Position numbers and translations under genes: made by a program
Notes under the pieces: generated by a model
The model's input: the letters and a program-made list of their open reading frames with translations, nothing else
Database searches by the model: none
What the model was told of the DNA's origin: nothing
In this document: piece by piece, positions 752 through 61,273 of the stretch
How the letters are laid out: each line of letters opens with the position of its first letter
How positions within the stretch are numbered: the stretch's first letter is position 1
Source: a virus
Strand: one strand, 5' to 3'
DNA length: 64,000 nucleotides
IMG/VR virus record: IMGVR_UViG_3300042893_000684
Span: 1-64,000 of that record

Positions 752-769
752 TTTCAAGGGTGGTATAAT
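741..769 (+). promoter_or_regulatory. Promoter TTGTTA-N17-TGGTATAAT, leaderless
   Basis: A -35-like TTGTTA (741-746), a 17-bp spacer and a perfect extended -10, TGGTATAAT (hexamer 764-769). The next ATG is at 776, 6 nt after the hexamer, so transcription should begin at the A of the start codon. The -35 overlaps the stop of the previous small gene. Confidence 0.7.
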
Positions 770-775
770 AAAGAT

Positions 776-943
776 ATGACAAACAACGTTATTGGAACTA
801 ATTTAGGCGACTGTCCTATTTGCGAAGAAAGCAGATGGGGAGTTAAATTAAACTCAGATGGAGTTGCTGCACCTTTTTGCATCGAATGTTCTGGAGACTA
901 TGCTGCAAAGCTAGCCTGGGAACAATCTGTAAACAATATTTAA
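776..943 (+). CDS. Small zinc-ribbon protein, 55 aa
   Basis: A 55-residue protein with two cysteine pairs, CPIC (residues 13-16) and CIEC (35-38), the layout of a small zinc ribbon. The rest is polar, and it ends in an Ala/Trp-containing helix. It probably binds one zinc ion and contacts protein or nucleic acid; the target is unknown. The start is fixed by the -10 box 6 nt upstream, and there is no Shine-Dalgarno sequence. Similar mini zinc proteins follow at 1668, 2857 and, on the other strand, 5115. Confidence 0.65.
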   Translation: MTNNVIGTNLGDCPICEESRWGVKLNSDGVAAPFCIECSGDYAAKLAWEQSVNNI

Positions 944-946
944 TTT

Positions 947-959
947 AGTCAACTAGGAT
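947..959 (+). promoter_or_regulatory. AGTYRACTAGRAT element (copy 2)
   Basis: AGTCAACTAGGAT, identical to copy 1 except at one base. Its TAGGAT hexamer (954-959) lies 4 nt before the ATG at 964. It is most simply read as the promoter, with an overlapping operator, for the three-gene run 964-2407. Confidence 0.5.
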
Positions 960-963
960 ATAT

Positions 964-1668
964 ATGTATTCAGTTGAGACTTATAAACTTCATCCAACCA
1001 ACACTGCAATACTTTCTCCTTTGGGTTTAAAAAGAGATTGGCAGGACGAGACTAATTACGAGCATGTTTACAAATGCTTTCCATTGACTCTTGCAAATAC
1101 AATGGGTTGGGGAATAAGTTATCCAGAAGATTTATCATTTATTTGGGACGGCAGATACACAGGATCTTCAGACTCAGTAAAAATTTTAAAAGGTCAAAAC
1201 TGGTTAACAACAACTAGAGGATATGCAACAGTAAACTTTAGAACTGGGATTAAATTTAAAACTGATCCTGATGTAAGCATGTTAGGTTATCCAGTTCCAA
1301 ATCAGTTCATTGATGGATTTCAATCTTTCACTTCACTTATATCAACTTCTTTCTTTATGGGAGAATGGCAGGTTGCTGGGAGAATAACTACTCCAAACAA
1401 GATCATTACAATTAAGGCTGGAACTCCAATCTCAGCAGTAATGCCAATATCGCTAACACATCTAAATAACTCTGAGATAATTGAAAAGCCAATTGAAAAC
1501 TTAAAAACAAAAGAAATTATGAGCAATGAGTATGCTGCACTGGTTGGAATGACAAATGTAAAAGGTGGAGTTTTGAATTTTTATAGAAATGCTACAGATA
1601 TGCATGGCAATAAAATCGGAGAGCATGAGCTTAAAGCTTTAAAGCTACATTATAGAAAAGGTAAGTAA
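964..1668 (+). CDS. DUF6065-like protein (copy 1), 234 aa
   Basis: The N-terminal part has the pattern I associate with the DUF6065 family (CFPLTLANTMGWGI, then a Trp-Asp-Gly strand). The biochemical role of that family is unknown to me. The C-terminal part carries a Pro-rich strand region in which a conserved 'PNK...I.AGTPI..V.P' motif precedes the end. A second protein of similar build is encoded at 3621. Its stop overlaps the next start (TAATG), so 964, 1668 and 1880 form one translationally coupled unit. An earlier ATG is not available in frame. The coding call is firm; the family is tentative. Confidence 0.7.
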   Translation: MYSVETYKLHPTNTAILSPLGLKRDWQDETNYEHVYKCFPLTLANTMGWGISYPEDLSFIWDGRYTGSSDSVKILKGQNWLTTTRGYATVNFRTGIKFKTDPDVSMLGYPVPNQFIDGFQSFTSLISTSFFMGEWQVAGRITTPNKIITIKAGTPISAVMPISLTHLNNSEIIEKPIENLKTKEIMSNEYAALVGMTNVKGGVLNFYRNATDMHGNKIGEHELKALKLHYRKGK

Positions 1669-1880
1669 TGTCTGTAAAACCGTGGGACTTATTCAATCCT
1701 CAAGAATCAAGAGTGTCTTTAGATGTGCTAGAAGAAAGATTACAGATATGCTCAACATGTCCACAATTTATTAAAGCTACAAAGCAATGTAAAAAGTGTG
1801 GGTGTTTTATGAACTTAAAAGCAAAATTAGAAAATGCTACTTGTCCAATAAACAAATGGCCAGAACTTGAGATCATTTAA
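1668..1880 (+). CDS. Cysteine-rich zinc protein, DUF6171-like, 70 aa
   Basis: A 70-residue protein with six cysteines: C28, C31, C41, C44, C46 and C59. The run CSTCPQF, CKKCGCFMNLKAKL and NATCP is typical of a small family often annotated DUF6171, found in phages and bacteria and likely a zinc-binding module. It overlaps the neighbours on both sides by one base (TAATG). That makes joint expression with the DUF6065-like protein and the oxygenase likely and suggests a shared pathway, which cannot be named from sequence. Confidence 0.75.
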   Translation: MSVKPWDLFNPQESRVSLDVLEERLQICSTCPQFIKATKQCKKCGCFMNLKAKLENATCPINKWPELEII

Positions 1881-2407
1881 TGAAAATAAATAAAATCCAC
1901 GATGGTATCTACGAGATAGAAGAATTTCTTACTCAACTAGAAGTAGATTCAATCCTTAAAACTTTAGATTCTGGAGAATGGCAAGGCTTAGATAGCGGAA
2001 GTCATTGGGAAAAAAGAATTAAAAAAATAAATCCACGACCAGAAGAACTTAATGACATATGCAAAAGAATTTCTAATCTTTTTTTATCCTATGGAGTAAT
2101 AAACAACATTCAAAGTATTCAAAGATTTGAAGTTGGTGGAAGTATGGGTGTTCATATAGATAAAATGCCATATAACAATGTGAGATATGGGATAGTCTGT
2201 TATTTAAACGATAACTACACAGGTGGAGAAGTGTATTATCCAGATTTAGGCATTGAGATAAAACCTAAACTAAGATCTCTTGTTATTCACAAAGGTGATA
2301 TCAGACATGGCGTAAAAGAAGTTTTGTCTGGATCAGATAGATATTTTTTAACTACTTTTGCCCAAGCGGATGATTCTAATGAGGTTGTTCTTAAAAGCTT
2401 TGAATAG
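1880..2407 (+). CDS. 2-oxoglutarate/Fe(II)-dependent oxygenase, 175 aa
   Basis: A prolyl-hydroxylase-like double-stranded beta-helix enzyme. Iron ligands are visible as H92-x-D94 (GVHID) and H143 (RHGV), with R154 placed to bind the 2-oxoglutarate carboxylate. The signature strands CYLNDNYTGGEVYYPD and KPK..SLVIHKGD are typical. Such enzymes hydroxylate protein side chains or other substrates using O2 and 2-oxoglutarate. The length matches stand-alone phage members. It is the last gene of the coupled 964-2407 unit. The substrate is unknown; the collagen-like fibres encoded further right are one possibility. Confidence 0.85.
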   Translation: MKINKIHDGIYEIEEFLTQLEVDSILKTLDSGEWQGLDSGSHWEKRIKKINPRPEELNDICKRISNLFLSYGVINNIQSIQRFEVGGSMGVHIDKMPYNNVRYGIVCYLNDNYTGGEVYYPDLGIEIKPKLRSLVIHKGDIRHGVKEVLSGSDRYFLTTFAQADDSNEVVLKSFE

Positions 2408-2524
2408 TTTTTCTGCTTTGCGTTCAAACTTGCCACCAGGACCTTCAACGTATTCGTTGCCTACAAATGTAGGGCTAAACTGTTGATGGGTAAAATGTCT
2501 TCTAGGTCCTTTTTCTGGGGTCAT
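2348..2524 (-). CDS. Small basic protein on the opposite strand, 58 aa
   Basis: An ATG at 2524 (MTPEKGPRRHFTHQQFSP) opens 58 codons running leftward over the last 60 bp of the oxygenase gene. A TATAAT box (complement of 2531-2536) lies exactly 6 nt upstream, the same spacing as the other leaderless genes here, so I chose this ATG over the one five codons earlier. The product is basic and ends in an amphipathic Lys/Arg-rich helix. No family is recognised. A tail-to-tail overlap with a rightward gene is unusual, so the call is moderate. Confidence 0.5.
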   Translation of the reverse strand: MTPEKGPRRHFTHQQFSPTFVGNEYVEGPGGKFERKAEKLFKAFKNNLIRIIRLGKSS

Positions 2525-2530
2525 AATATA

Positions 2531-2536
2531 ATTATA
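2531..2536 (-). promoter_or_regulatory. Leftward -10 box (TATAAT), leaderless
   Basis: On the minus strand GTGTATAAT is followed after 6 nt by the ATG at 2524. It is back to back with the rightward -10 at 2563-2568, so the 25 bp between them separate two divergent leaderless genes. Confidence 0.55.
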
Positions 2537-2562: not shown

Positions 2563-2568
2563 TATAAT
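2563..2568 (+). promoter_or_regulatory. -10 box TATAAT, leaderless
   Basis: TATAAT at 2563-2568 is followed after exactly 6 nt by the ATG of the HNH gene at 2575, so the expected transcription start is the A of the start codon. A GAGG just before the ATG would not be in such a transcript. Confidence 0.65.
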
Positions 2569-2574
2569 TGAGGT

Positions 2575-2856
2575 ATGTCTCCAGAGAAGATATCGATCAA
2601 GAAACAAAAAGAAGCTCTGGCACGTTATTTAAAAGAAGTAAAAGAAAAGAACCCATGTATGGATTGCAAGGTCTGGTACCCATACTATATGATGGATTTT
2701 GATCACGTCCGTGGACAAAAACATGCAAATGTGGCGGAGCTCATTAATACGTTATCTAAGAAACGAATCGATGAAGAAATAGCCAAATGTGAAGTAGTAT
2801 GTTCTAATTGCCACAGAGCAAGAACATATATGAGAAAAATGCGGAAGGCAGGATAA
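2575..2856 (+). CDS. HNH-type zinc/nuclease-like protein, 93 aa
   Basis: The layout is that of a compact HNH/beta-beta-alpha-metal module: C28-x2-C31, then D43-H44 (DFDHVRG), then C76-x2-C79 followed by H80-R81 (CSNCHRAR). The four cysteines should bind structural zinc, while D-H and the downstream His form the metal-dependent active site. Possible jobs include nicking or cutting DNA during phage replication or packaging, or homing-type invasion; the length (93 aa) fits free-standing phage HNH proteins. The basic N-terminal helix could hold DNA. The next gene starts directly after its stop codon. Confidence 0.75.
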   Translation: MSPEKISIKKQKEALARYLKEVKEKNPCMDCKVWYPYYMMDFDHVRGQKHANVAELINTLSKKRIDEEIAKCEVVCSNCHRARTYMRKMRKAG

Positions 2857-2967: not shown

Positions 2968-2981
2968 AATTATGGTATAAT
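2958..2981 (+). promoter_or_regulatory. AGTYRACTAGRAT element (copy 3) plus TGGTATAAT box
   Basis: AGTTGACTAGAAT (2958-2970) is the reverse-complement variant of the AGTCAACT core. It is followed by an extended -10, TGGTATAAT (hexamer 2976-2981). The ATG at 2988 is 6 nt downstream, giving another leaderless unit. Two -10 candidates in tandem (TAGAAT and TATAAT) could give two start sites. Confidence 0.6.
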
Positions 2982-2987
2982 AATATT

Positions 2988-3131
2988 ATGCATGATCATG
3001 AAAATATAGTATTAACCACAGGTTCAGGAATAACTGAAATGCAACTGATGTGGATTATCATGGGAGCCATGGCCATTCACCATATTTGGATGTGGTGGAA
3101 GATGAAAAAGAAAAATTGTAATTGCAAGTGA
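2988..3131 (+). CDS. Small membrane protein, 47 aa (first of four)
   Basis: MHDHEN is followed by a hydrophobic segment (about residues 19-38, with IIMGAMAIHHIWMWW) and a basic tail KMKKKNCNCK. One membrane helix with the positive tail in the cytoplasm is expected. Histidines at both membrane faces and the terminal CNC could bind metal. It starts 6 nt after a TATAAT box and overlaps the next frame by four bases (GTGA). I do not recognise a family. Candidate roles are a holin-like or superinfection-exclusion peptide. Confidence 0.55.
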   Translation: MHDHENIVLTTGSGITEMQLMWIIMGAMAIHHIWMWWKMKKKNCNCK

Positions 3132-3608: not shown

Positions 3609-3614
3609 TATACT
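3609..3614 (+). promoter_or_regulatory. Extended -10 TGCTATACT, leaderless
   Basis: TATACT (3609-3614) preceded by TGC. The ATG at 3621 is exactly 6 nt downstream, and no Shine-Dalgarno sequence is present. Confidence 0.65.
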
Positions 3615-3620
3615 GTTGTA

Positions 3621-4382
3621 ATGAGTAATATTGAATTTATATCTATGATGCCAGGGCTGCAAGAGATACAGCAATGTAAGCCAAAGCCTTCAAAGCAGTT
3701 TGTGCCGCAATGGTTTAAAGATACTCCAAGTATGTTGGGCTTAAATGACATGCCGTATGGCCCAGGATCTGCTCAAGTTGGTACTATTAGCTTTCCTTCC
3801 GCATCTACTGTAAAAATTTGTCCTGCCTTCCCAGACTTCTTTTCTCAAGGCTATGTTCTTCCAATGTGGTGCGATACAGAACTTGCCTTTAATGACGAAA
3901 CACAGGAATTTTTTTGGAAGACCTCTAACGATGCATTTTCTTGGAGTATTCACACTAACAATCAGTTTTTAAAATGGGCAGATGCATCCCTGCATGGAGA
4001 CAAGGCAAAGTTTGTTTTTAAAGCCGAATGCCCTTGGAGAATAATTACTCCTAAAGGCTGGTCTGTTTTACAGCTTCCAATGTTTTATCATTATAATAAA
4101 AACTTTTCAGTTCTTCCTGGCATTATTGATACTGATATCCATCATGAAATTAATCAACAAGTTTTGTATCATGGTGGCACAGATAAAATTACAATTAGTC
4201 GAGGAGACCCTTTTGTCCATTATATTCCTTTTGAAAGAAAGTCAAAGCTAGGACTTGAGATTAGAGAATTGACTGACATAGACAGAAAACGTTTTCAGAA
4301 AAACGAAATGAATATAGCGTCAAAGTTTGTTCCAAATGGCTTGTATAGGCTATTACAAAGAGAACGAGATAAAAAGAAATAA
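3621..4382 (+). CDS. DUF6065-like protein (copy 2), 253 aa
   Basis: It shares its overall build with the protein at 964: an N-terminal strand region, then a core with ITPKGWSVLQLP, FSVLPGIIDTD, a late Gly-x-Pro (RGDPFVHYIPFER) and a helical basic tail. Sequence identity between the two is low, so they are distant paralogues at best. The family occurs in phages next to 2OG-oxygenases, but no activity is known to me. It has its own leaderless promoter and is followed 11 bp later by a bidirectional terminator, so it is monocistronic. Confidence 0.65.
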   Translation: MSNIEFISMMPGLQEIQQCKPKPSKQFVPQWFKDTPSMLGLNDMPYGPGSAQVGTISFPSASTVKICPAFPDFFSQGYVLPMWCDTELAFNDETQEFFWKTSNDAFSWSIHTNNQFLKWADASLHGDKAKFVFKAECPWRIITPKGWSVLQLPMFYHYNKNFSVLPGIIDTDIHHEINQQVLYHGGTDKITISRGDPFVHYIPFERKSKLGLEIRELTDIDRKRFQKNEMNIASKFVPNGLYRLLQRERDKKK

Positions 4383-10970: not shown

Positions 10971-12070
10971 TGGCAGTTAGTATAAGAATTAGAAGAGGTA
11001 CTACAGCTCAATGGAATGCATCTACAAATGTTCTTGCAGCTGGAGAAATTGCATTAGATACAACTCTAGGTAAAATAAAAGTTGGAAATGGATCTTCTTT
11101 GTGGGGAGCTCTTCCATTTTTTAGTATAGCCCCTTCAGAACTCTTAAGTTTAACTCAAGCAAATATTGCCGATACAGTATTGGACGGAACTGGCTTAGAT
11201 AAATCTTTTGACTCAGTTGCTGGAAAGCTAACATTATCTGTAGATAGCACTATTGCAAATAAAACATATGTAGATACAGCTGTTTCTTCTTTAAGCGGAA
11301 CTGCTGCACAGACATACATTCCACTAAGTCAATATGGAAACGCAGACGGAGTTGCCACTCTTGATGAAAATGGCAAAATCCCAGATTCTGAAATTCCAGC
11401 CACAATTACAAGAGACACAGAGCTGTCTTCAGCAATTTCTACAGAAGTAACAAATAGAAATACAGCAATTTCAACTGCAATATCTAATCTTGTAGATTCA
11501 GCCCCTGGAACCCTAGATACATTAAATGAGATTGCAGCAGCATTTGCAGACGATCCTAATTTTGCTACAAGCATAACAACAACAATAGGAAACAAGCTAG
11601 ACTCTTCCCTAGCAGCAACAACATATGCCCCTATAGCATCACCAACTTTTACAGGAACTGTAGGTGGTGTTACAAAAGCCCACGTTGGTCTTGGAAATGT
11701 CGATAATACTTCAGATGCAAATAAGCCAATCTCAACTTTAACTCAAACAGCTTTAGATACTAAAATAAATGAAATTATTGAATTTAATTCACAAAGTGGA
11801 AATTATACCTTGCAATCTACAGACACAGGTAAGCTTGTAGAAATGTCAGGCGGCGGAACCTTGACAATACCTTCTGACGCAGTGTATAATTTTCCAATAG
11901 GCACATCAATAGAAATTTTACAAACAGGAACCTCACAGGTTACTATAGCTGGAACAGGATTTACACCAAATTCTACACCAGGTCTCAAGCTTAGAACACA
12001 GTGGTCAAGCGCATCGGTATTAAAGAGAGGTAGTAACAGCTGGGTCGTATTGGGTGACCTAGCAGTATAA
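10970..12070 (+). CDS. Tail-fibre protein with Mtd-N-like domain, 366 aa
   Basis: The first 50 residues (IRIRRGTTAQWNA, AAGEIALDTTLGKIKVGNG) match the N-terminal domain of the phage major tropism determinant and many receptor-binding proteins. Then come coiled or trimeric units, including SAPGTLDTLNEIAAAFADDP, a fibre module also present in the gene at 16079. The C-terminal part is a beta tip with IPSDAVYNFPIGTSIEI. The Mtd-like start does not imply a diversity-generating element, since no reverse transcriptase is seen. Confidence 0.75.
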   Translation: MAVSIRIRRGTTAQWNASTNVLAAGEIALDTTLGKIKVGNGSSLWGALPFFSIAPSELLSLTQANIADTVLDGTGLDKSFDSVAGKLTLSVDSTIANKTYVDTAVSSLSGTAAQTYIPLSQYGNADGVATLDENGKIPDSEIPATITRDTELSSAISTEVTNRNTAISTAISNLVDSAPGTLDTLNEIAAAFADDPNFATSITTTIGNKLDSSLAATTYAPIASPTFTGTVGGVTKAHVGLGNVDNTSDANKPISTLTQTALDTKINEIIEFNSQSGNYTLQSTDTGKLVEMSGGGTLTIPSDAVYNFPIGTSIEILQTGTSQVTIAGTGFTPNSTPGLKLRTQWSSASVLKRGSNSWVVLGDLAV

Positions 12071-12071
12071 T
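12066..12071 (+). promoter_or_regulatory. -10 box TATAAT overlapping the previous stop, leaderless
   Basis: TATAAT at 12066-12071 covers the stop codon of the fibre gene. The next ATG, at 12077, is 5 nt downstream with no ribosome site between. Confidence 0.5.
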
Positions 12072-12076
12072 AAAAA

Positions 12077-13201
12077 ATGCTTAGAAGATTTTTTGGCCGA
12101 TTTGGCAGAAGAAAAGTTAGCGTTCCGTCACTAGTTAATTTAAGTAAGGCTCAAGCTGAATCTGCACTTGCTGCAAAAGGTTTAAATTATAATCAAACAT
12201 CAACTGCTACATCAACATCTGCATTAAATTTAACTGTATTGTCTCAAGGAACTCCAGCAGATACTATTGTGCCAATTGGTACATCAATTGATTTTAATTA
12301 TTATAATTATGTTGCCCCACCTTCATTTGGTCCTTCTTTTGTTCCTAGCCCACCACAGAATTCATCTGTATCTAGCTCAAGTTGGAATGGATCTACAGTA
12401 ACAATCAATGGAACATTTAATACTTTTCCTACAAACATTGCTGTAAACGGAAGCAACATTGGAAGCTGGACCCCAAGTTCAAACCAAATAACATTTTCTT
12501 TAAGCGGATCAGGAAGCAGAACTATTCAGATCTATAACGGAAGAGTTCCACTTATTCCAGAGTTTAGTATTTCATATAATCCAAATCCAGGATTTAATCC
12601 AGGTCCAGTGTTTAATCCAGGTCCAATATTTAATCCAAATCCAATATTTAATCCAGGTCCACAATTTACTCCAGCACCACCTATCTTTTGGTCTACTCCA
12701 TTATTTTTTGGACCTCCTTCTTTTAAAAGTGTTGGTGTTTCAACATTAGTAAGAACTCCAAATGGCCTTGTTAAAGCAGACGATTTACAAGTAGGAGACA
12801 TTCTATTATCAGCAGATATAGAAGGTTTTATAAATTCTCCACAGGAAAACTCAACTCAGATTGCACTCGCATGGTCAGATACAAATCCAAATATAAATAT
12901 TACAGAGACTACAATCGTTTCTATAAATAAAAAAATGTCAGATGGCGCAGTAGTTATTAACAGTGATATTTTTTCAAACTACCACTATATTCTAATTAAA
13001 AGAGACGGTGTTGCAAAGTTTGTATCTTCAGTAGATGTTTTAAATACAGACCTTGTATACTCTTATGCTGATCAGACGTGGGAAGAAATAACAACCCTAG
13101 AATCTGTTCCAATTGTTCATGAGGTTGTTTCCATTAACTGTGAGCCATACGATATGTTCTTTACAGAAAAGATATTAACCCATGACTCAACAGCAATTTA
13201 A
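12077..13201 (+). CDS. Virion protein with PASTA-like and C-terminal Hint domains, 374 aa
   Basis: The N-terminal part has a PASTA-like motif (VPSLVNLSKAQAESALAAKGL, residues 16-36), which in other proteins binds peptidoglycan. Then come a beta domain and an Asn-Pro-Gly repeat (about 168-198: NPGF, NPGP, NPNP). Residues 218-374 look like a Hint (hedgehog/intein) domain: VSTLVRTPNG with ADDLQVGD, H303 in NYHYIL, and a C-terminal THDS (368-371). The usual first Cys is Ser218 and the terminal Asn is Asp370. Self-cleavage is therefore possible but changed in chemistry. It ends four residues after HD. Confidence 0.65.
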   Translation: MLRRFFGRFGRRKVSVPSLVNLSKAQAESALAAKGLNYNQTSTATSTSALNLTVLSQGTPADTIVPIGTSIDFNYYNYVAPPSFGPSFVPSPPQNSSVSSSSWNGSTVTINGTFNTFPTNIAVNGSNIGSWTPSSNQITFSLSGSGSRTIQIYNGRVPLIPEFSISYNPNPGFNPGPVFNPGPIFNPNPIFNPGPQFTPAPPIFWSTPLFFGPPSFKSVGVSTLVRTPNGLVKADDLQVGDILLSADIEGFINSPQENSTQIALAWSDTNPNINITETTIVSINKKMSDGAVVINSDIFSNYHYILIKRDGVAKFVSSVDVLNTDLVYSYADQTWEEITTLESVPIVHEVVSINCEPYDMFFTEKILTHDSTAI

Positions 13202-18673: not shown

Positions 18674-21600
18674 ATGGCAAGAAAAATTTTAAGTTTAACA
18701 GATATTGATTTTGTACCAGGCACAGGAACATTAACTATTCCTAAGCTAATTCGCAGAGAAAAATTACTGTTAATTACAAATACAACAGCTAACAAGATTG
18801 TTTACAATTTTGCTGATCCTGCCCTAGGATTATATAGTCACTCATTTTCTACTCCTGCTTCAGACCCATATCATGATGCTGCTCACGGAAAAACAATATT
18901 AGTATTAAAGTACAACACATCTACAATGTTGCCTACAGATGATTGGCAAATTGTTTATGATACAGAAAATGAAGCATTTGAGCCAGCAGACTATTTGGTA
19001 GATGCGGTAGGAAAGCTTCGTACAGCAAACCCAGTATCCCTTATTGATACTGACTTTGAGTATGGTATTCAGAACTCTAAGTGGGAAACACTTACAATGA
19101 TTCAAAACTATCCAGGATTCTTTGGAAGATCCACTGGTGGAAACGCAATTGATATACAGCTAATTCAAGGAAATGGAGTTGCTCCATTATCTACAATAAC
19201 TGTTACATGTAATTCACCACACGGATTAAGCTCAGGAGATGTTATATCAGTTCAAGAAACAACTTCAGATAATGCGGATGGAACATTCCTATGCTTCCCA
19301 ACTGGAGCAACAACATTTACATATACAGCAAAAGGTGTTGTAAATGGTCCTATTCAAGATGGAACACTGACATCAATTTACGGCGGAGGAATTTTTGATA
19401 ACGCACATATTATGGGCGGAGTTGTAGGACAGCTTGGAACATTTTCTGCAGTATCAGATCAGGCTACACCTTCAAGAATTACAGTAGTTTCACCAAAGCC
19501 ACACGGACTTCTTCCAGGAACACCAATTCTTGTTACACAAAAAGAAGGAAGCAACTTCTTTGGAAGCTTCTTTATTGACACTGTAGACACACCAAACTCA
19601 ATGTCATTTATGGCAAATGGACAAATTAATAATCCAATTAACACACTTGATCAAGGATTTTATGCAAAGCCTGAAGGATATGTAAACCATAGACCACATG
19701 ACGGTGGAGTTATTATGTCTACAGGAAACAATGTGTGCGGTACACAAACAATGCGTCAAACACGTAGATACTTTAGATACCAGTCTGGTAAGTCAATTCA
19801 GTTCTCAACAGGAACAAAGTTTACACCTACATTCCAGGTAGAATATTTAGCATCTGCAGGACTAGTTCCAGGATCACAAGACATCACTGTAACTACACTT
19901 AATTCTCATAACTTACAGCCAGGAGCATACGTTAAAATTGAAGGAACAGAAACTTCTGGTTCCTATAATCCATTTAACGGAATTCATCTTGTAACATCAA
20001 TTATTGATGCTACAACATTTAAATACAATGTTGTATTTACACAAACATTATCAGCAATTGATCAAATCCCAGGCGGAGTAAATGTATTTTGTACAGCTTA
20101 TATTTGGAAGGGTGCATCAACAAGAGCTGGCCTTTATTCAGAACAAGATGGATTCTTTTTTGAATATGATGGACAAGGTATATTTGCTTGTCGTCAATGG
20201 TCAACACAGGTACTTAGAGGAAATGTTTCTGTAACTAAGTTTAACTCAACAGTAACAGGAAGCGGAACAATCTTTAGAAAGCAATTAGTTTCAGGAGATA
20301 AAATTGTAATCCGTGGACAGTCTTACAGAGTTCTTCAAATTGCTTCAGATTCTTCTTTGACAATTGCTCCCGCCTATCGTGGAGCAAGCCAAACAAGCGT
20401 TAAGGTTCGCAAGACTCAAATTATTAAAATTAAGCAGTCGGAGTGGAACCTAGACAAGTTTGATGGAAGCGGTCCATCAGGACACGTATTTGATCCATCA
20501 AAAATGCAAATGACATATATTGACTACTCCTGGTACGGAGCAGGAACAATTAGATATGGATTTAGAGGCCAAGGCGGAAAAATTACCTGGTGTCATGAAA
20601 TTTCTAATAACAATAATAACCTTGCCGCATATCAAAGATCTGGTAACCTACCAGCTAGATATGAAGCAATTAACGAACCAACAAAGTTTTCAAAGCTAGT
20701 TGCAGGAGGAACGGCAGTAAGAGGATCCAATCTTCTTCCACAAGACACAGTAATGTATATTGATAATGTAGACTACTGGCCAGCAAGTGGATTTATTAGA
20801 ATTCAAGATGAAAATTATTGTGAAATTGCACGATATACATCAATTGGTGCATACAATAATACTGCAAAGGGATACGCTATGAATCTTATTCGTAGACAGC
20901 CTTATGTTACATATTATGCAGGATCAGCTTATAGCCTTAATGGAACTTATATCGCAGCAACTTTTAGACCAGACTCAACTATTCCTGGAGGATCAGGATC
21001 TGCACAAGTTTCAGTTCAAGTTATTTCTCAAGAATGTGCTCCAGTTATGAGCCACTGGGGATCTTCAGTAATTATGGATGGAGGCTTTGATGATGATGCT
21101 TCCTTTATCTTTACAGCTGGTATGCAGCGCTACTTACAGGTCGGTGGTTCTGGATCCGTTTCAGCAACTATTGTTTCTAGAGTAAGAACATCAGGAGTTG
21201 CAACAATTACAACTTCAGCTCCCCACTCATTACTTGCTGGTTACAACGCAGTAGTTTCAGGTGTAAATGATGTATCTGTAATTACATACAAGCAGCTAAC
21301 CAATAACCAAGCAAGCCTTACAACATCTGTTGCCCACAGACACAGAGTTGGACAGACAGTAGTGGTCACTGGAGTTGATAACGTATTTAATGGTACATGG
21401 ACAATTACTGGAGTTACATCTACAACATTCTTGTTTGCTAGATCTTCCAGCAATATTCCATTCCAGGCAGTGTCATCATTTACTAGCCCAACCGCTGTAA
21501 CTTCAAGCTATTACAATGGAACGTTTTTAGTAAATAACGTTACTTCAAATACAATTTCATATGCTGTTGCACAGCCAGATGAAACTTCATCTGCGGTTAA

Positions 21601-31426: not shown

Positions 31427-32497
31427 ATGAAAATAGCAGTATATACAATTGCTTTAAATGAAGAGCAGTTCGTTAACCGTTGGTATGAATCTGCAAAAGA
31501 TGCTGACTATTTATTAATTGCAGATACAGGATCTACAGACAAAACGGTAGAGATAGCTAAATCACTTGGTATTAACGTGCATACTATTTCTATAAATCCA
31601 TGGCGATTTGATGATGCTCGTAATGCAGCTCTTGCCCTACTTCCCTCCGATATTGATTATTGTATATCTTTAGATATGGACGAAATACTCTCAGAAGGCT
31701 GGAGAAAAGAATTAGAGTCATTAGAAGGCTCTAATGTAACTAGACCGATACATACACTTGCTACTCATATAGATGAAGCGGGACAATCAGGAACAGAGTT
31801 TGACGCATTAAGAATGCATTCAAGACACGGACATAGATGGAAGTTTCCAATTCATGAATCTGTTTCGTTTTACGGAATAGAAGAAGTAAGAAAAAAGATT
31901 GATGTAAAAATATCTCATTTTCCAGACAATAATAAATCTAGAGGACAGTACCTTGCTCTTTTAGAAATGGCTGCAAAAGAAGATCCCTTAAGTGATAGAT
32001 GTGCACATTATTATGCTCGTGAGTTGTTTTTCTATGCTAGATATAAAGAGTCGGCAGCTGAATTTAAAAGACACCTATCTTTAGAGTCCGCCCATTGGAA
32101 GCCAGAAAGATGTGAATCTCTTAGGTACATTGCTAAATGTGAACCAGATAATAAAGAGTATTGGCTTAGAAAAGCTATTGAGGAATGCCCAGAAAGAAGA
32201 GAGCCTTTTGTAGACCTAGCTCAACATTTTTATGAATTAGGAGATTGGTACAGAGTAAAAGAATATTCACAACTTGCTTTAAATATAAAAGAAAAGTATT
32301 TAGGATATTTTTGTGAGTCAGAAGCATGGGGATGGAAGCCCCATGACCTACTAGCCCTTGCAAACTATAATCTAGGAGACTTTGAAGAGGCTTCAAAGCA
32401 TGGAGAAATAGCTGTTTCTTTGTGTGAAGATCAAAGACTGCATGACAATCTTGCGTTTTATCATGATGCTCAGAATCTTAAAAGTGGTATAATTTAA
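31427..32497 (+). CDS. GT2-family glycosyltransferase with TPR-like C-terminal region, 356 aa
   Basis: I start at 31427, with CGGAG about 6 nt upstream; the frame is open earlier but inside the fibre gene. The N-terminal 100 residues are a GT-A fold: [20 protein letters not shown] (nucleotide-sugar site, 31-40), FDDARNAAL, and the DMD metal motif (83-85). Residues about 180-350 are helical repeats with TPR character. The build fits enzymes that glycosylate proteins such as SunS or fibre modifiers. It lies exactly between two collagen-like fibre genes, so those fibres are the natural candidate substrate. Confidence 0.82.
32488..32493 (+). promoter_or_regulatory. Extended -10 TGGTATAAT inside the glycosyltransferase 3' end
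   Basis: TATAAT (32488-32493), preceded by TGG, is made from the last codons (Gly-Ile-Ile) of the glycosyltransferase gene. The fibre ATG at 32500 is exactly 6 nt downstream, so the 619-aa fibre can be made from a separate leaderless mRNA. Confidence 0.7.
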
Positions 32498-32499
32498 AA

Positions 32500-34359
32500 A
32501 TGCCTAGTAATTTAACTCCTAAGAATTTCAGATATCCAACACTGGATATGTCTCCTGACATTCCTAGAGACTTAGGTTATCTTGCACAAGACATTGATGA
32601 TTACTTAACAGCAAACCCAGGAGCTACAGGACCTACTGGTCCTACAGGAGCAACAGGTGCTACAGGGTCGACTGGTGCTAACAGCACAGTTGCAGGACCA
32701 ACAGGTGCCACAGGTGCAACAGGTCCTACTGGATCTACAGGTGCCAACAGCACAGTTGCAGGCCCTACAGGCCCAACAGGTGCCACAGGGCCAACTGGTG
32801 CTAACAGTACAGTCGCTGGTCCAACAGGATCAACAGGCGCAACTGGCTCTACGGGCCCAACAGGTGCCACAGGTGCCACAGGTGCAACTGGTCAAGCTGG
32901 AACTGGAATTGACATTCTAGGAACTTTTTCTTCTTTAGCTTTATTACAATCAACTCATCCAACAGGAAATCCTGGAGATGGCTACATGGTGCAAGGCAAT
33001 TTGCATGTATGGGATAGTGTAAATAGCGAATGGGATAATGCAGGACCAATTTCTGGACCAACAGGTGCCACAGGTGCAACAGGACCAACAGGTTCTACAG
33101 GTGCAACAGGCGCAGATAGCACAGTAGCAGGACCAACAGGTGCAACAGGCGCAACAGGTTCTACAGGTGCAACAGGCGCATCTGGCGCTAACAGCACAGT
33201 AGCAGGACCTACAGGCGCAACAGGAGCAACAGGCGCAACAGGCGCAACGGGCTCCACTGGTTCCCAAGCAACATTTTCTTTAACTTCTTCTACTCCCCCA
33301 CTTGATCCAATCCAAGGACAAGCGTGGTTTAATACTGAAAATGGTAAAAGTTATACTTACTACGATTCGTTCTGGATAGAAACTGGTTCTTCTTTATCTG
33401 GACCAACAGGAGCAACAGGCTCTACAGGTGTAACAGGACCAACAGGTGCCACAGGAACTCAAGGAGTTGCCGTAAACTTAAAGCCTTCAGTAGCAACAGT
33501 ACCTTCTTTACCGTCTACTGGCAATACTTTAAATGATGGAAGAATTGTTGAATCAGATGGAGATCTTTACATTTGGGACGGATCCTCATGGAGTTCAGTC
33601 GGACAAATAGTAGGACCTACAGGAGCAACAGGCGCAACAGGCGCAACAGGTTCTACAGGCGCAACAGGCGCAACTGGTGCAACAGGTTCTACAGGCGCAA
33701 CAGGCGCAGATAGTACAGTAGCGGGCCCAACAGGCCCAACTGGCGCTAACAGCACAGTTCCAGGACCTACAGGCGCAACAGGCGCAACTGGTGCTAACAG
33801 CACAGTAGCAGGTCCAACAGGCGCTACAGGACCAACAGGTGCAACAGGCGCAACAGGCGCAGATAGCACAGTAGCAGGACCAACAGGAGCAACAGGCGCA
33901 ACAGGCGCCACTGGTTTACCAGGAGCAAGCGGTGGAAAAATAGTTCAAGTTGTTAGTGCTACAACATCAAATACTACATCTTCAACAGGTGGAGCAGGAT
34001 ATGTAGATGTTAGCGGATTATCTGTAACAATTACCCCAACACTTTCAACAAGTAAAATTCTTGTAATGACATCATTTTTAATTTTAGGTACTGGTCCATC
34101 ATATCAATCTGGTTTGGTTCAACTTGTAAAAAATTCTACATCATTAACTTCAGCAGTACTAGGTACTTATTATCCAAATGGTGGGGGAGTTAATACTGGA
34201 AACTATGCTCAATATTCAATTCAGTATATAGATTCTCCAGCAACTACAAGTGCAACAACTTATAAAATTCAGATTAACAACGTCCTTAGCGCAAATAACT
34301 GGGGTGCTAATCCAAGTGGAAATCCAATTCAAATTATAGCAATGGAGATACTAGCATGA
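32500..34359 (+). CDS. Collagen-like fibre protein, 619 aa
   Basis: A short N-terminal anchor ([17 protein letters not shown]) is followed by long Gly-x-y stretches of [10 protein letters not shown] and GSTGATG type. Every 25-40 residues these carry an interruption, [11 protein letters not shown] or [11 protein letters not shown]. Two globular units (near residues 145 and 325) follow the pattern seen in the 797-aa fibre. The C-terminal 130 residues are a beta tip. The Thr-rich Gly-Pro-Thr pattern resembles BclA of Bacillus, whose threonines carry O-glycans. Expected trimeric fibre. Confidence 0.8.
32620..33940 (+). repeat. Gly-x-y coding repeats (in 619-aa fibre)
   Basis: Two blocks (about 32620-33265 and 33390-33940) of tandem ACAGGCGCAACAGGC-type DNA, with the interruption coding for Asn/Asp-Ser-Thr-Val at near-regular spacing. 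The repeats are imperfect and differ in third-base choice. Confidence 0.85.
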
Positions 34360-39448: not shown

Positions 39449-39477
39449 TAGACTTTAGCACAGAATAATGGTATGAT
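39449..39477 (+). promoter_or_regulatory. Promoter TAGACT-N17-TGGTATGAT
   Basis: TAGACT (39449-39454), a 17-bp spacer and an extended -10 TATGAT (39472-39477). It starts the head module. The nearest ATGs are 39480 (2 nt) and 39486 (8 nt). The second fits a leaderless start better. Confidence 0.65.
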
Positions 39478-39485
39478 TTATGTCT

Positions 39486-39827
39486 ATGGATATTAATAAA
39501 GCTAAATATAACATTAATGAAGAAGAATCGATTCTAGGCATATACGTATGGGAGATGCCTGACGGTAGATGGATTGGAGACGACGATGGGAACTTTCTTT
39601 CAGTCACGTCCAAAAAAGGAAATAGATCCAACATCGATGCTTTGGCTAGAGAAGTTCGCTCATTTGGCATATATGAGGGCGGGCCTAAATTTCTTTCAGC
39701 AAGAAGAAAGATTGACGACGAAGAATTCCAGCATCAAAAGCAAAGACTTGACTGGGGACTAGTTCCTGATCCATATGATATCGGAAACTATAAAGACGAA
39801 ATGAAAAAAATAGGTGGTTTAAGATGA
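39486..39827 (+). CDS. Hypothetical head-module protein, 113 aa
   Basis: I prefer the ATG at 39486 (MDINKAKYNINEEES); the frame also has an ATG at 39480. The protein is acidic then basic, with a beta-like IYVWEMPDGRWIGDDDGNFLS unit and a charged helical tail. It is coupled to the portal gene by overlap (ATGA). Possibly involved in packaging or portal assembly, but no family is recognised. Confidence 0.6.
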   Translation: MDINKAKYNINEEESILGIYVWEMPDGRWIGDDDGNFLSVTSKKGNRSNIDALAREVRSFGIYEGGPKFLSARRKIDDEEFQHQKQRLDWGLVPDPYDIGNYKDEMKKIGGLR

Positions 39828-41407: not shown

Positions 41408-41447
41408 GTCCACTCAACTGTTATTTGCTTTATAGTCTATAACACTA

Positions 41448-41453
41448 TAAAAT
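41448..41453 (+). promoter_or_regulatory. -10 box TAAAAT, leaderless
   Basis: TAAAAT at 41448-41453 lies 7 nt before the ATG at 41461, and no ribosome site is visible. It would give a separate leaderless mRNA for the protease and capsid genes. Confidence 0.45.
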
Positions 41454-41460
41454 TAAGCAT

Positions 41461-42813
41461 ATGAACATTGAAAAGTCTTTATGGACCAGTAACGGCAACG
41501 TTATTAATTTGTCGGTTCCTTTTACTAAAGTTAACCGTGAAAAGAGAACCGTATCTGGATTCGCAACCCTAGACAATGTTGATCAGACTGGTGATGTTGT
41601 AACAGCAGAATCAAGTCTCAAGGCATTCGAAAATTTCCGTGGGAATATTCGTGAAATGCACGGATCAAATGCGGTAGGAAAGATGGTTTCATTTAAGCCA
41701 GAAACTTTTTATGATCCAAAGTCAAAAGAGTTCTTCAACGGAGTGTATGTAGATGCATACATCTCAAAGGGCGCACAAGACACCTGGGAGAAAGTTCTAG
41801 ACGGAACTCTATCTGGATTCTCAATCGGCGGAAAGATTCTTGAGTCAGACAATGAAGTTAACAAGGCAAACGGTAAGACCGTAAGATTTATTAAGAACTA
41901 TGAACTAATTGAACTTTCTATTGTTGATTCACCAGCAAATGAACTTTGTAACATTCTTTCTATTCAGAAAGTAAATGGACAATACATTGCTAAGGGAATT
42001 GCAGTAGGTGTAGTAACTGAAAACATATTTTACTGTGCAGACAGTGATTCTGTTTTTATCTCAACAGATAAAACATACGACTCTCCAGTATCTGGAAAGC
42101 CAGCAGAATTAATAGGATGGGTTGAAAGCTCAGACGTTAATAAAGCAAAAGAGATAGATAAGATTCTTGATGCATATAAGCATTCAAGATTTACGTTGCC
42201 TGAAACACAAACAATTGCAAAACAGGCAAACGCAGAAGGAGGTAATGAAATGTCAGATAATACAGAAAACGTAGTTGTCGAAGATGTTGCAGTAGAGGCA
42301 CCAGCCGAAGCAGTAGCAGAAGAAGCAGCCGTTGAAGATACAGCAGTAGTTGCAGATGATGCAGCTCCAGCTGAAGCTCCTGCAGAAGCAGTAGCAGAAG
42401 ACGTTCCTGCCGAGACTCTGGAAAAAGCAGCCGAAGTATCAGAAGATAAGGTTGATGAACCTGATTTTGCGAAGATGTTAGGCGATCTAAAAGGCTTTTT
42501 CTCAGAAACTCTAAACAAGGCATCTGAAGCAAATGCAGCACAAGTAACAACAATCCAAACGACTGTTGAAGCTTTCAGCAAGAGCGTAGATGCTAGAATT
42601 TCAGAGTTGGCAGAACAACACACAGCACTTTCAAGCGCTGTAAATAACATCAAGAGCACGATTGATGGTGTACAAAAGCGTGTCGACGCAGTAGAATCAG
42701 AGACTGCATTTAAGAAGTCTTCAGATCTTGGCCGATCAGAAGAAGCAACAACAATCAAAAAATCTAAATGGAACGGTTCTTTCCTCGGTTCCGTAAACGA
42801 AATATTCAACTAA
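41461..42813 (+). CDS. Prohead protease fused to scaffold, 450 aa
   Basis: Residues 1-170 are an HK97-type prohead protease: H67 (REMHGSN), S121 in LSGFSIGG, and a third motif ELSIVDSPAN (151-160). Residues 264-450 are an Ala/Glu/Val-rich stretch followed by coiled coil (LSSAVNNIKSTIDGVQKRV), typical of scaffold. An in-frame ATG at 42250 has a consensus ribosome site, so the scaffold is probably also made separately. The protease digests the scaffold and matures the capsid after assembly. Confidence 0.85.
   Translation: MNIEKSLWTSNGNVINLSVPFTKVNREKRTVSGFATLDNVDQTGDVVTAESSLKAFENFRGNIREMHGSNAVGKMVSFKPETFYDPKSKEFFNGVYVDAYISKGAQDTWEKVLDGTLSGFSIGGKILESDNEVNKANGKTVRFIKNYELIELSIVDSPANELCNILSIQKVNGQYIAKGIAVGVVTENIFYCADSDSVFISTDKTYDSPVSGKPAELIGWVESSDVNKAKEIDKILDAYKHSRFTLPETQTIAKQANAEGGNEMSDNTENVVVEDVAVEAPAEAVAEEAAVEDTAVVADDAAPAEAPAEAVAEDVPAETLEKAAEVSEDKVDEPDFAKMLGDLKGFFSETLNKASEANAAQVTTIQTTVEAFSKSVDARISELAEQHTALSSAVNNIKSTIDGVQKRVDAVESETAFKKSSDLGRSEEATTIKKSKWNGSFLGSVNEIFN
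42250..42813 (+). CDS. Nested scaffold protein from internal start, 187 aa (predicted)
   Basis: AAGGAGG (42236-42242) lies 7 nt before an in-frame ATG at 42250 inside the protease gene. The product would begin MSDNTENVVVEDV and contain the whole Ala/Glu-rich and coiled-coil scaffold part. This arrangement parallels lambda C/Nu3. It would give excess scaffold over protease. The site is more perfect than most real starts in the window, so it is unlikely to be accidental. Confidence 0.7.
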   Translation: MSDNTENVVVEDVAVEAPAEAVAEEAAVEDTAVVADDAAPAEAPAEAVAEDVPAETLEKAAEVSEDKVDEPDFAKMLGDLKGFFSETLNKASEANAAQVTTIQTTVEAFSKSVDARISELAEQHTALSSAVNNIKSTIDGVQKRVDAVESETAFKKSSDLGRSEEATTIKKSKWNGSFLGSVNEIFN

Positions 42814-51700: not shown

Positions 51701-54700
51701 AACTGGTATGGGAAGACATCAAGGCGGAGGAGTTCACCCACACCCTCATGCAGGAAAGCCTATGACAGATGCTCAATACAGAAGAGCTCTTAAAATGTAT
51801 TATGAATTTATTAACGATCCAAACTATGAAGCCAATGTTCGTGCAAGATTTATTGCACTAGATGCTTCAGAGTATTTGGGAGTTGCCCCACAGATAGGAA
51901 CTAAAAAAGCTATTGAAATAGCTACTGCTAATTTTGATGCTGCTAAGGACCTTAATGGATCTCCCGAAGACTGGATTAAAACTAGAACAGCACAGCTTGC
52001 TGCTTTTGACGAAAAATATTCTATGGGAGACAAAAGATTAGTAAAAGAAGGAAGAAGCGCAACGGCTTCTGGTTTAACTAGCGATAACTTTTTAAATAGA
52101 AATATGAACAGGGTTTTAAGATCAATGAGCAGAAACCCATTATTTGCAGAAGCTCATGAAGATTTAAAGTCAATACCTAGAGCAACTGGTAAAATACAAG
52201 GCGGCGGAGGAAGATTAGTTGAAACTGCTAGAGGCCACGCATTTAGAAGATCTTTAATAGCACAACTAGGTGGAGTTGGCTCAAGAGGATTTGCAGGATT
52301 TGCTGCTATTATGCCTGCAGCATTTAATACAATTGCTGCACAACTTCAGGGCAAAAATTTTCAACCAGATGTAATTCATTTAAAGAGGGCAAGTGCAATT
52401 GCTGACTTTGAAGAAATGGTAAGAAAATCTGGAGTCCCTGGAAGCGTAGACGATGTAATACAAGCATTACAGTATGATACAAGATTTGTAGCTGCATCAG
52501 ACAAGAAACCACGAGTTGCTCCTCCATCACCAAAACAAAAAACTGCACTCAACATGTTTTTGCAAGCAATCTCTGCAGGAAAAGCTTGGATTCCAATTCG
52601 TGGAAAACTTGCTCTTGCAGGAGCGGTTAAATTAAATAAGGGTGGACAAGTACCAGGAAAGTTTGCACAAAGATTGTTTGGCGGCGGTAAAGCGTTGTTC
52701 TTAGGAATGCCAAGATCTATTAAGCAGGTTGAAGCCCAGAGAGCCGCAAAGGTTGCTATGGAAAAAGCAAGTCAAGCAGTTAAAGACTCTAGATTTAGCA
52801 AGACCCCAGTAACTGATTATGACGCTATGCTAGAGCCAACATCAGGAAGAAGTTTCCCAGTATCTGGAATTGGTGGAGTTTATAGCAAGAACGGGGAAAA
52901 GGTTTTTGTTAAGCCAGTACTAGATGAAAAAGCAGCGCTTGCTGAGATAAGAGCAACTGAAATTGCTCGTGATGTTCACGGACTACAAACACCTAATCAA
53001 AGAGTTGTTGTAATGAGAGACCCAACTGACAGAAGAGGATCTAGAACACTACTAGCTTTAGAGTCTAAGTACAATCCTGCTATAGCAAATCAAGATGGTA
53101 AATTTACAGAAGATCAATACTTTAGACAGTTAGTTGCATCATCATTACGTGGCGACAAAGATTTAGGCAGGGGTAACCTTTCTGGGAACATACTTGCCGA
53201 TGTAGGTCCAGCTGGGGTATTTTCAACAGCCTCTGGACCAAGAGATTATTCTGCAACAATGCCTTCATTTAAACAACAAGCAATGATCAACTTGCTTGGA
53301 GTAAAAGGAAGCAGTACAAAGAAATTCTTTGCTGAAGCAACTTCAGATATTCCAAGAGGTATGACACCTGATCAATACAATGATCGCATGCTGCAAGAAA
53401 TTGAATCTGCTCTCCCAAAGCTAAAACAAACAATAGGTAGATTTGATTTAAACACAGAAGAAAAAGTTATTTACAATGCAATGATCACAAGACTATCTGA
53501 TGCAAGAAGACAAACTTACAGAGATTTGCATGGAGTTCATTCATCAGTAACAATGTCTCCAGAAAAAACAATGACTCCAGCAGCAATTGCCAAAATGCTT
53601 GCAGCAGATGAATTGAAGCGCAGACAAAAGGGTCACTCTGTAAGCCTATCTGATAATGCATTTAAGACACCAGAAAATGGATTCAATATTGGCGGATTAA
53701 TTGGAAACGTTCTTAAGGGTAAAGCAATGCATAGAATTGGTGCAGGATTTGGCCCAACTGGAGCACCTAAGCCAAGTATGTATGAGTCAGCTCCATGGGG
53801 CGTGAACTCTCTATCTATTGAAATGGCCGACAAGCTATTTGCAAACACAGGTTTAAGAAAGCATACTCAAAAATTATTCTATGACAAGTTTGCGGCAGCA
53901 CTAGCAAAAGAAAAACCTTACGGATATGTAAAGATGCCAGATGGTAAATTAAAGAACGGACTCGAGCCAGACGTGCTAGACTCTGTAATAAGATCAGCCG
54001 CTTCAGATCTTGTTGGAGACAGAAACATAATTAAACAACTTTCTCCAATTGATAAAGATATTTTGCGAAACAAATATTTAAATTGGGATTCTAAAAAAGA
54101 TACTCCGCTTACAGAATCTTTAAAGAAAATTATATTTGGTTTAGAAAAAAGAGAAATGGGCGGACCAGTTAACGCAGGTCAACCATACGTTGTGGGAGAA
54201 AAAGGACCAGAGCTATTTGTACCTAGAAATTCAGGAGGCATTGTTCCAAACGGATACATGAAGGGCGGAAACATTGCAATGCTTGGAGCCTCACTAGCAC
54301 CAATGCTAATTGCGAGCAAGATTACTAATCCTTTACTTCAAACAATAATGCAGACGCTTTCATTTATCATACCTCAAATGATGATGACGGCAATGATGCA
54401 GACAAAAGCTGAAGGCGCACAAGGAAGAGTCGGTGGACTTATGTCTAAGATTCCAGCTTCTGCAAAAACTCCTATATTCTCTACAGCAAGAGGGACAAAA
54501 GTTGCTGGTGAAATGTTGGAAGATGGAACATACGCCAAGGGCGGAAGAATGCTCAATAGATACGGCGCAGCTCTTCAGAATTCTGCCAAGAGCGGGAGCG
54601 CAGTAACAAGAACCCTGGGAAGAATTGGAATGGGTCTTACAAGATTAAATGTAGGACTTGCTGTAGCAACAGGAGCTTTTATTCTTATCAATAAAAGAAT

Positions 54701-60400: not shown

Positions 60401-60894
60401 ATGTAACAATTGCTGGAACCTCAATAGATTCTTTTGGAATGGACATCTATGTAATAAACAACACTGGAACATTTACGGATCTTGCTAATAGCGAAGAGAA
60501 ACAGTTTGTCGTGGTTGGCAACTATATCGTGCCTTCAGATCCATTTGAATATATTGACCCAGCACTTACAGATGAAGAAAAAAAGGAAATTGTAGGCTTT
60601 GACTCCACATGGATTCAGAGGGAGTCAGAAGCAATTGAGCTATCTAAGTTTATGACAAAGCAGTGGTCTAAGCAGCAAAAGGTTGTCACACTAGAAACAT
60701 TTTTTAATCCCCTAATACAAATAGGAGATATTGTGGAAATTTCTTACCCAGATAATGGACTATATTCTTCTGAAAACTCAACAATACCCGCTGGGTTTCA
60801 GGCTAATAAATTTGTTGTTCTGTCTATTGATAGTACCTACGATAAAGATTCTCCGCCTACAACAAACATAGCTTGTAGGTCAATTTATACATGA
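57496..60894 (+). CDS. Tail-tip hub (Tal/gp27-like) protein, 1132 aa
   Basis: I start at 57496 (MIQVSANTTNALS), where TAATG overlaps the previous stop; the longer frame lies inside that gene. The N-terminal part has CRVEYNMNDLISGV typical of hub proteins. Around residues 335-450 the signature GVFYLDSYEVDEFGEVS, INALDGARELQYI, VWQHIQDLCKDTQMIAVFDN is that of the gp27/hub domain. Later regions have lectin-like beta (SGYFLSVATTQ), and TRYTTPGFPLYPS and ETFFNPLIQIGDIVEISYP near the C-terminus. It forms the tail tip and holds the fibres. Confidence 0.78.
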   Translation: MIQVSANTTNALSKAVNVSVTNGCRVEYNMNDLISGVAVTAPEGVITATLTAPQNQGGYQYKPFEKLFPIKSIIDPRRPKVAGIQYMIAADPSLSTTLAASGSADGKTYAAAKELNKRLYFSGIKTAYKYWVTPKAASGSTSLTNCILTVSYPAVKTAAANKIVLKFETSHSKPTSWNVKLLSLSGVESTIYTGTTCPDNGIVNLYYNGSAWVDVEPATVSTGVDLSGLKLQVNSISTAGGYLGIIEISARLVKDVTDILQSFDISQNSSDSINGLVPVGDVTANYLRLSLNAYDKSYDNYDKTKAFNKNKLSLYENITIRPHVIVESEKINLGVFYLDSYEVDEFGEVSINALDGARELQYIKPPDIVTKDMSTVAIIRRLLDSVGFSNYKFNLVDTDTSIVAPYYWYTDPQKTVWQHIQDLCKDTQMIAVFDNNDVLQFYPRGYIFNTAKNPDASFRYSNTADGKLANISGISIENVPSVKAIKVMYSPQLTSNYDGDADNLYTSPVVTLGSAALMADLPKVATAETDAPKGVIKLRPVEISGAAQQFYSYTGYLVLGKEIIEYDAIKFVYEPVSGSPAVAYKWIKNESDIQSNLGLAKPNTFRPTGEYRIKERNVFNAVTADADLTHSADIDSLRMEWTGQKWNSETGNFTPDNTESAFTLKEVAIKDENGKDLANPNNLFSAIPRSMMTIFAPLGTLKDSTQDPTIKEPVPNKIYTLVTTDTAKYLKGENFSIGTNMYFPLLKNSKGEATGEQRTISGIAFSLNSTNKSGYFLSVATTQNTSADKGFRELSFYKIVDGKLIKMTDSQKEEDGSILTGISGGRLYRIDIRANYSVPTGGSAKVLTLRISINNKEFIVVDQSPITITEKIGIASLQGVSAFDYVYASAIDESDFTADKKYNPYKGFMGGESTIIKTFGEFIFNQKGQTESTSWVREFGPVARELKKITARYTTPGFPLYPSLVNNPDVTIAGTSIDSFGMDIYVINNTGTFTDLANSEEKQFVVVGNYIVPSDPFEYIDPALTDEEKKEIVGFDSTWIQRESEAIELSKFMTKQWSKQQKVVTLETFFNPLIQIGDIVEISYPDNGLYSSENSTIPAGFQANKFVVLSIDSTYDKDSPPTTNIACRSIYT

Positions 60895-60901
60895 GAAATG
60901 G

Positions 60902-60907
60902 TAGAAT
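60902..60907 (+). promoter_or_regulatory. Extended -10 TGGTAGAAT, leaderless
   Basis: TAGAAT (60902-60907), with TGG before it, and an ATG at 60914 exactly 6 nt later. It gives a separate message for the last tail-tip genes in the window. Confidence 0.6.
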
Positions 60908-60913
60908 GTAAAT

Positions 60914-61273
60914 ATGAGTAATATTAAAAACCCAGCGTCCTCAACGGCAAAAGTAAAAAAGCTTTTGCTTTTTGAAGGAGACCCTTTAATTAAAACTCTT
61001 AAGCCAGACTATTATGCTATTGTTGGTAAAGACACGCTGACTGGTATTGCAGACCCTACTGGAGAAGACCCAGGAACAGACCCAGAAGATCCTGGCGAAG
61101 AGGATCCAGGTGAACCAGGTGATGGACTAAAGGCACCATCTTTGTCTGATATAACTCTTATAAGCAAGACTATGGTTACAGACAAAAACAAAAATCAATA
61201 TGTTGAGTTTGTATTTAATGTTAAAAATAGCGGCGGAGAAACAGTAGTGGGGGCAGAGGTTTATGGACAATAG
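60914..61273 (+). CDS. Tail-tip associated protein with acidic Pro-Gly linker, 119 aa
   Basis: A basic, hydrophobic N-terminal part (AKVKKLLLFEGDPLIKT) is followed by an acidic linker of DPGTDPEDPGEEDPGEPG type (about residues 53-72), then a beta segment (YVEFVFNVKNSGGETVVG). The next gene overlaps its last 11 bp. It probably links or decorates the tip. Family not recognised. Confidence 0.6.
   Translation: MSNIKNPASSTAKVKKLLLFEGDPLIKTLKPDYYAIVGKDTLTGIADPTGEDPGTDPEDPGEEDPGEPGDGLKAPSLSDITLISKTMVTDKNKNQYVEFVFNVKNSGGETVVGAEVYGQ

Follow-up and report, generated by a model that had tools for sequence, protein, structure and literature searches.

Several open reading frames (ORFs) of the virus analysed here begin a constant, very short distance downstream of a -10-like hexamer, which raises the question if their mRNAs are leaderless, and to which extent this start mode is used by the phage. 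The stretch examined (hereafter the window) is the initial 64-kb segment of a virus record of 104,426 bases and has a GC content of 38%. Genes for tail, portal, head protease, capsid and tape measure lie in it, and DnaB, DnaE, RecA and related genes are located in the record's right part. There are at least about 590 related stretches in IMG/VR, and we compared the record (G000) with seven relatives of 62-109 kb (contigs G001-G007). Start codons were called from the sequence, transcription start sites (+1) were deduced from the positions of the -10 and -35 elements, and the spacing d denotes the number of nucleotides between the end of the -10-like box and the ATG.

On direct reading, all seven ATGs that an initial annotation had placed exactly 6 nt behind TATAAT, TATACT or TAGAAT proved exact (Table 1). 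The extended TGN, said to be present in most units, precedes the box in five of the seven (776, 2988, 3621, 32500 and 60914) and is absent at 2524 (minus strand) and 2575. As to the further units announced with 5, 7 or 8 nt, the boxes at 12077, 41461 and 39486 were recovered (TATAAT-5, TAAAAT-7 and TATGAT-8, respectively), whereas at 596 we found TAGGAT-5 only.

Table 1. Putative promoter and start-codon units in the window
Positions	Strand	Elements	Start (ATG)	Gene	Assessment
578..598	+	AGTCGACTAGGAT, then ATG	596		
764..778	+	TGG-TATAAT 764-769, 6 nt	776	55-codon ORF	predicted leaderless start
2522..2536	-	TATAAT 2531-2536, 6 nt	2524	58-codon ORF	possible leaderless start
2563..2577	+	TATAAT 2563-2568, 6 nt	2575	HNH endonuclease	predicted leaderless start
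2976..2990	+	TGG-TATAAT 2976-2981, 6 nt	2988	47-codon ORF	predicted leaderless start
3609..3623	+	TGC-TATACT 3609-3614, 6 nt	3621	phrog_7084 protein, 253 aa	predicted leaderless start
12066..12079	+	TATAAT 12066-12071, 5 nt	12077		box overlaps stop codon of preceding gene
32488..32502	+	TGG-TATAAT 32488-32493, 6 nt	32500	collagen-like tail fibre gene	
39449..39488	+	-35-like TAGACT 39449-39454, spacer 17, TGG-TATGAT 39472-39477, 8 nt	39486		
41425..41463	+	-35-like TTGCTT 41425-41430, spacer 17, TAAAAT 41448-41453, 7 nt	41461	head maturation protease	
60902..60916	+	TGG-TAGAAT 60902-60907, 6 nt	60914	119-aa gene	predicted leaderless start

The even spacing had been judged hard to explain by chance, and the controls bear this out. 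TATAAT-6-ATG occurs 11 times in the 104 kb versus 2.65 +/- 1.55 times in 300 dinucleotide shuffles, none of which reached 11 (maximum 8). When only ORF starts are considered, boxes with up to one mismatch are found at d=6 in 20 of 170 candidate ORFs of the whole 104-kb record compared with 4.0 at other distances (P ~1e-8), and the full TATAAT in 8 ORFs versus 0.45; for the window alone, the numbers are 5 versus 0.26 expected from other distances for TATAAT (Poisson P ~8.5e-6) and 9 versus 2.2 for one-mismatch boxes. The broad pattern TG.TANNNT, whose count had been proposed as a check, is in slight excess (11 versus 7.3), a weak effect: the signal resides in TATAAT-like boxes and not in TANNNT generally. 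All seven relatives likewise have a TATAAT peak at d=6 (5, 3, 7, 9, 8, 5 and 5 cases versus backgrounds below 1). Pooling the record and its relatives, de-duplicated at 70% upstream identity, yielded 50 cases at d=6 versus about 8-9 elsewhere. The peak is seen with ATG and is absent for GTG, TTG, CTG, ATA, ATC and ACG. Cultured Streptomyces phages show it as well (TAnnnT, 27 versus 11 in NootNoot and 16 versus 7.2 in Ankus), whereas the same distance profile revealed no 6-nt peak in the equally AT-rich Vibrio phage Ceto, E. coli phage T4 and Bacillus phage SPO1. The peak across the phage and its relatives is thus confirmed as real, although about 4 of the 20 matches in the record are to be expected by chance. 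Those at 53388, 61752, 69110, 88157 and 89772 look chance-like; 88157 and 89772, both outside the window, are not conserved in the relatives and are attributed to chance.

The elements surrounding the box conform to this picture. A TTGACA-like -35 hexamer lies at a spacer of exactly 17 in 21 of the 50 de-duplicated cases, but at spacers of 13-16 or 18-21 in only 0-2 of them. Because of this -35 position, box, spacer and start codon read as a standard promoter with +1 on the A of the ATG, in independent agreement with the start point originally assigned. A pyrimidine precedes the ATG in 76% of the d=6 cases, as it does a +1 purine. The claim that ribosome sites are mostly missing also held: mean anti-Shine-Dalgarno pairing upstream of the leaderless starts is -1.7 kcal/mol, compared with -1.95 for random ATGs and -5.05 for the other genes. 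An SD-like 4-mer occurs in 4 of 17 such starts, inside or close to the promoter, and AAGGGTGG within the extended -10 of 776 is a possible but badly placed ribosome site. Most leaderless starts thus appear to be devoid of a functional Shine-Dalgarno site. TGG-TATAAT boxes lacking a good -35 (32500, 60914, 101435) are found next to units of the TTGACA-17-TATACT type (79196, 99954, 101812). A division into two exclusive classes, -35 versus extended -10, was rejected, as the two elements co-occur freely across the 50 cases (Fisher P 0.57).

A spacing of d=6 is kept in diverged orthologs of 2575, 2988, 79196, 86023, 89014, 89586 and 101812. For example, orthologs of 2575 in G002, G003 and G004 retain it despite unrelated flanks, and those of 2988 in G003 (91% identity), G002 (81%) and G005 (79%, with a different flank). 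The 776 unit is identical in G001. At 3621, a G007 homolog with only 28% identity also has TATACT-6-ATG. The genome encodes three members of PHROG 7084 (964-1668 and 3621-4382 in the window and L083:11065-11766, record position 95065), one with a weak DUF6065 match and two with predicted leaderless starts. The box of the tail-fibre gene is contained in the final codons of the ORF before it, and TGGTATAATTTAAAA-ATG is retained in orthologs at 50-61% protein identity. The gene at 60914 is flanked by two tail genes; G001 shares the d=6 spacing, as do the homologous genes G005:73660 and G007:28379, and the syntenic NootNoot gene at 42702 has TATAAT-6-ATG, too. Orthology of the 60914 product with NootNoot gp58 is not detectable (E 0.29), so that synteny and promoter layout alone agree. 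The weakest of the seven is 2524 on the minus strand, one half of a divergent promoter pair: its ORF overlaps the end of gene 1880-2407, and among the relatives the unit was found only in the near-identical G001.

At two virion genes the box stands slightly farther from the ATG, at a distance that is nonetheless almost invariant. The gene starting at 39486 precedes the portal gene; in 45 unique upstream regions of relatives the spacer is 17 throughout, and the box-to-ATG distance is 8 in 42 and 7 in 3 of them. The ATG at 39480 is missing in most relatives, and comparison of the sequences identifies 39486 as the conserved start. For the head maturation protease, distance 7 and spacer 17 hold in 36 of 36 unique upstream regions. 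At the neighbouring major capsid gene, the Shine-Dalgarno-to-ATG distance drifts between 6 and 11 nt. A rigid box-to-ATG distance is what would be expected if the transcription start fixes the start codon, and judged by their layout 39486 and 41461 may be near-leaderless, with leaders of 0-3 nt. An AT-rich dyad, TTTATAGT...ACTATAAA (41421-41457), overlaps the head-protease promoter, and other relatives have a dyad in a shifted register; it may be an operator or a by-product of conserved promoter elements. An RNA hairpin at 41461 was dropped as an option, as the dyad register varies among relatives and many of them fold weakly.

Two units with 5-nt spacing are more doubtful. The box of 12077 is missing in the G003 ortholog (54% identity), leaving a leaderless start there unproven. 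The start at 596, with TAGGAT-5 as its sole box, is the weakest of all units named. Its orthologs in G002 and G003 keep AGTCGACTAGGAT and have TAGAAT farther upstream, while the distance from TAGGAT to the ATG varies between 4 and 5. An AGGA Shine-Dalgarno site probably directs translation of 596, the short leader being transcribed from a TAGGAT/TAGAAT box about 27 nt upstream. We rejected leaderless starts for both 596 and 964 and prefer an AGGA ribosome site located in a recurrent element, AGTYRACTAGRAT. This 13-bp element is present four times (578, 947, 2958 and 5976), always outside called genes and within the first 6 kb, and is also seen in relatives ahead of orthologous genes; both 596 and 964 may have their ribosome site in it. 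Another candidate, AGTCGACT, was discarded as an enriched operator, as no enrichment was seen.

After removal of the chance-like internal matches, about 16 genes of the record remain at d=6, to which 41461, 90161 and 39486 are added at 7-8 nt. By this estimate, about 16-19 of roughly 120 genes, or roughly one in seven, would be leaderless or nearly so. Most of the remaining genes have strong Shine-Dalgarno sites of the GGAGG/AAGGAG type, some of them with short leaders and a promoter 20-30 nt upstream (13717, 18041, 24232). The designation "leaderless-mRNA phage" was therefore overstated; with a leaderless minority and a Shine-Dalgarno-led majority, this is a phage of mixed start modes. The mode possibly switches between orthologs: the structural-region gene 37624 is Shine-Dalgarno-led here, but TATAAT- or TAAAAT-6-ATG precedes the homologous NootNoot gene at 21512 (578 aa) and ORFs of 581-590 aa in G003-G006, where homology is established for the NootNoot gene only and the G003-G006 ORFs were matched by similar length. 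Conserved predicted leaderless promoters were also seen at two nearby peptidase genes outside the window, one HslV-like (L083:5014-5571, record position 89014) and one of the subtilase family (L083:6161-7120, record position 90161).

The start mode had also been taken to predict an actinobacterial host, which is well supported by gene content, since the phage encodes a WhiB-family protein (G000:87811-87984, equivalent to L083:3811-3984; PF02467, E 4e-12, above the curated cut-off) and WhiB is a marker for assigning uncultivated freshwater phages to Actinobacteria (PMC6802176). The gene is also present in four relatives, G004-G007. Among cultured phages, those of Streptomyces are the closest; the head protease shares 43-44% identity with those of the Stanwilliamsviridae phages Wakanda and NootNoot. 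A single scan of bacterial genomes with the phage ribonucleotide reductase (RNR) gave environmental MAG contigs only, none of them actinobacterial; these contigs are most likely viral. No direct host link was found. Contig L131, assigned to a 'cyanobacterium' MAG, has an RNR with 79% identity to that of this phage and is likely a misbinned relative. No tRNA genes were found in the 64-kb window. The same record also contains a full-length tryptophan halogenase gene (L083:14118-15632, record 98118-99632; Pfam PF04820, E 1e-105) and an APS-kinase gene at 97114, for which a conservation check among 15 records yielded zero relatives.

We consider it very probable, on the strength of promoter layout and conservation, that plain promoters recognized by the principal sigma factor of the host start transcription on, or 0-3 nt from, the A of the ATG, giving rise to leaderless mRNAs. 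The sigma factor would be host sigma-A, and the ribosome would initiate on the 5'-terminal AUG in a Shine-Dalgarno-independent manner, a mode that is common among Actinobacteria. The leaderless minority would mostly represent the first genes of transcription units; the remaining, Shine-Dalgarno-led genes would be operon-internal or be transcribed with short leaders, their promoters lying about 20-30 nt before the start codon. The simplest objection is that an AT-rich genome often places TATAAT-like strings 6 nt before an ATG. Indeed, the window has only 38% GC and one-mismatch boxes precede about 4 ORF starts at any distance, but a peak that survives shuffling, replicates in seven relatives, is ATG-specific, goes along with a -35 at exactly 17 and is lacking in equally AT-rich T4, Ceto and SPO1 makes coincidence extremely improbable.

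It is unlikely, too, that the promoters are real but give short leaders (about 1-5 nt, or starts farther upstream) served by another short-leader initiation route. This would suit 39486 and 41461, fixed at 8 and 7 nt, as well as 88675 with 8-9 nt in relatives, and the choice of +1 can slide by 1-2 nt. The dominant spacing, however, is exactly 6 and the -35 covers -35 to -30 counted from the A, just where textbooks place it for +1 on that base, and such a leader would be too short to fit a Shine-Dalgarno site. We regard as quite improbable a phage-encoded factor that binds the boxes (e.g. together with the phage WhiB) and defines a dedicated temporal class instead of plain sigma-A promoters. 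Two box styles occur, TGG-TATAAT without a good -35 and TTGACA-17-TATACT, and the phage does encode WhiB; some members of the WhiB family can act through sigma-A. Yet consensus and spacing fit housekeeping promoters, and the free combination of -35 and TG extension leaves no clear second class. Similarly doubtful is a family-wide maintained regulatory class, going beyond a habit inherited from the host, in which key virion genes are locked to promoter-defined starts for Shine-Dalgarno-independent translation during host takeover; it is just as doubtful that the pre-portal gene, the head protease, the tail fibre and the 60914 tail gene form such a set.

With sigma-A promoters and leaderless starts as the preferred reading, promoter and translation-start layout, together with the host type, would be readable from the sequence of an uncultivated phage alone. 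Starts near such boxes need re-annotation, as with 39486 over 39480 and 32500 over a downstream ATG. Leaderless initiation would further no longer be limited to a few predicted promoters of mycobacteriophages: a widespread lineage of freshwater actinophages and the Streptomyces phages related to it would use it as well.

Leaderless genes of Actinobacteria are marked by a TANNNT signal located about 12 bp ahead of the start, TAtaaT in lower-GC genomes, and make up about 19% of genes on average (BMC Genomics 2011, PMC3160421). The phage resembles them in the -10-type signal, with a box that begins 12 nt ahead of the ATG, in the missing ribosome site and in a similar share of leaderless genes; it differs in its low GC content (about 38%), the near-full TATAAT box and the restriction to ATG, with no GTG peak. 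Mycobacteria use GTG as well as ATG for leaderless starts, which is common, not defining. The cI mRNA of phage lambda is leaderless and starts at the AUG (mentioned in PMC3160421 and PMC9031893), but there only one gene is concerned, in a host where Shine-Dalgarno initiation dominates, and not a recurrent start mode as here. A literature search for leaderless transcripts in combination with freshwater Nanopelagicales gave no match. Cluster O mycobacteriophages have predicted leaderless SigA-like promoters (PMC4351075). Like these phages, ours has promoters whose predicted +1 coincides with the first base of the start codon, and in both cases a divergent pair is among them, although there are about 16-19 instead of about three per genome; unlike them, it belongs to an unrelated, uncultivated lineage of freshwater type, and conservation of the spacing was tested across genomes. 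NootNoot (MF347636, Stanwilliamsviridae) shares a homologous portal-protease-capsid block, RNR, a DnaE-type polymerase, WhiB and the 6-nt peak; in the pairwise comparison the protease, the portal-side gene, the capsid block and tail genes matched. Its genome, however, has 50% GC, 131 kb and many tRNAs, whereas no tRNA gene was found in our window. Leaderless genes of this kind have thus been described before for actinobacteria and the phages infecting them, and the present phage is a strong, conserved case.
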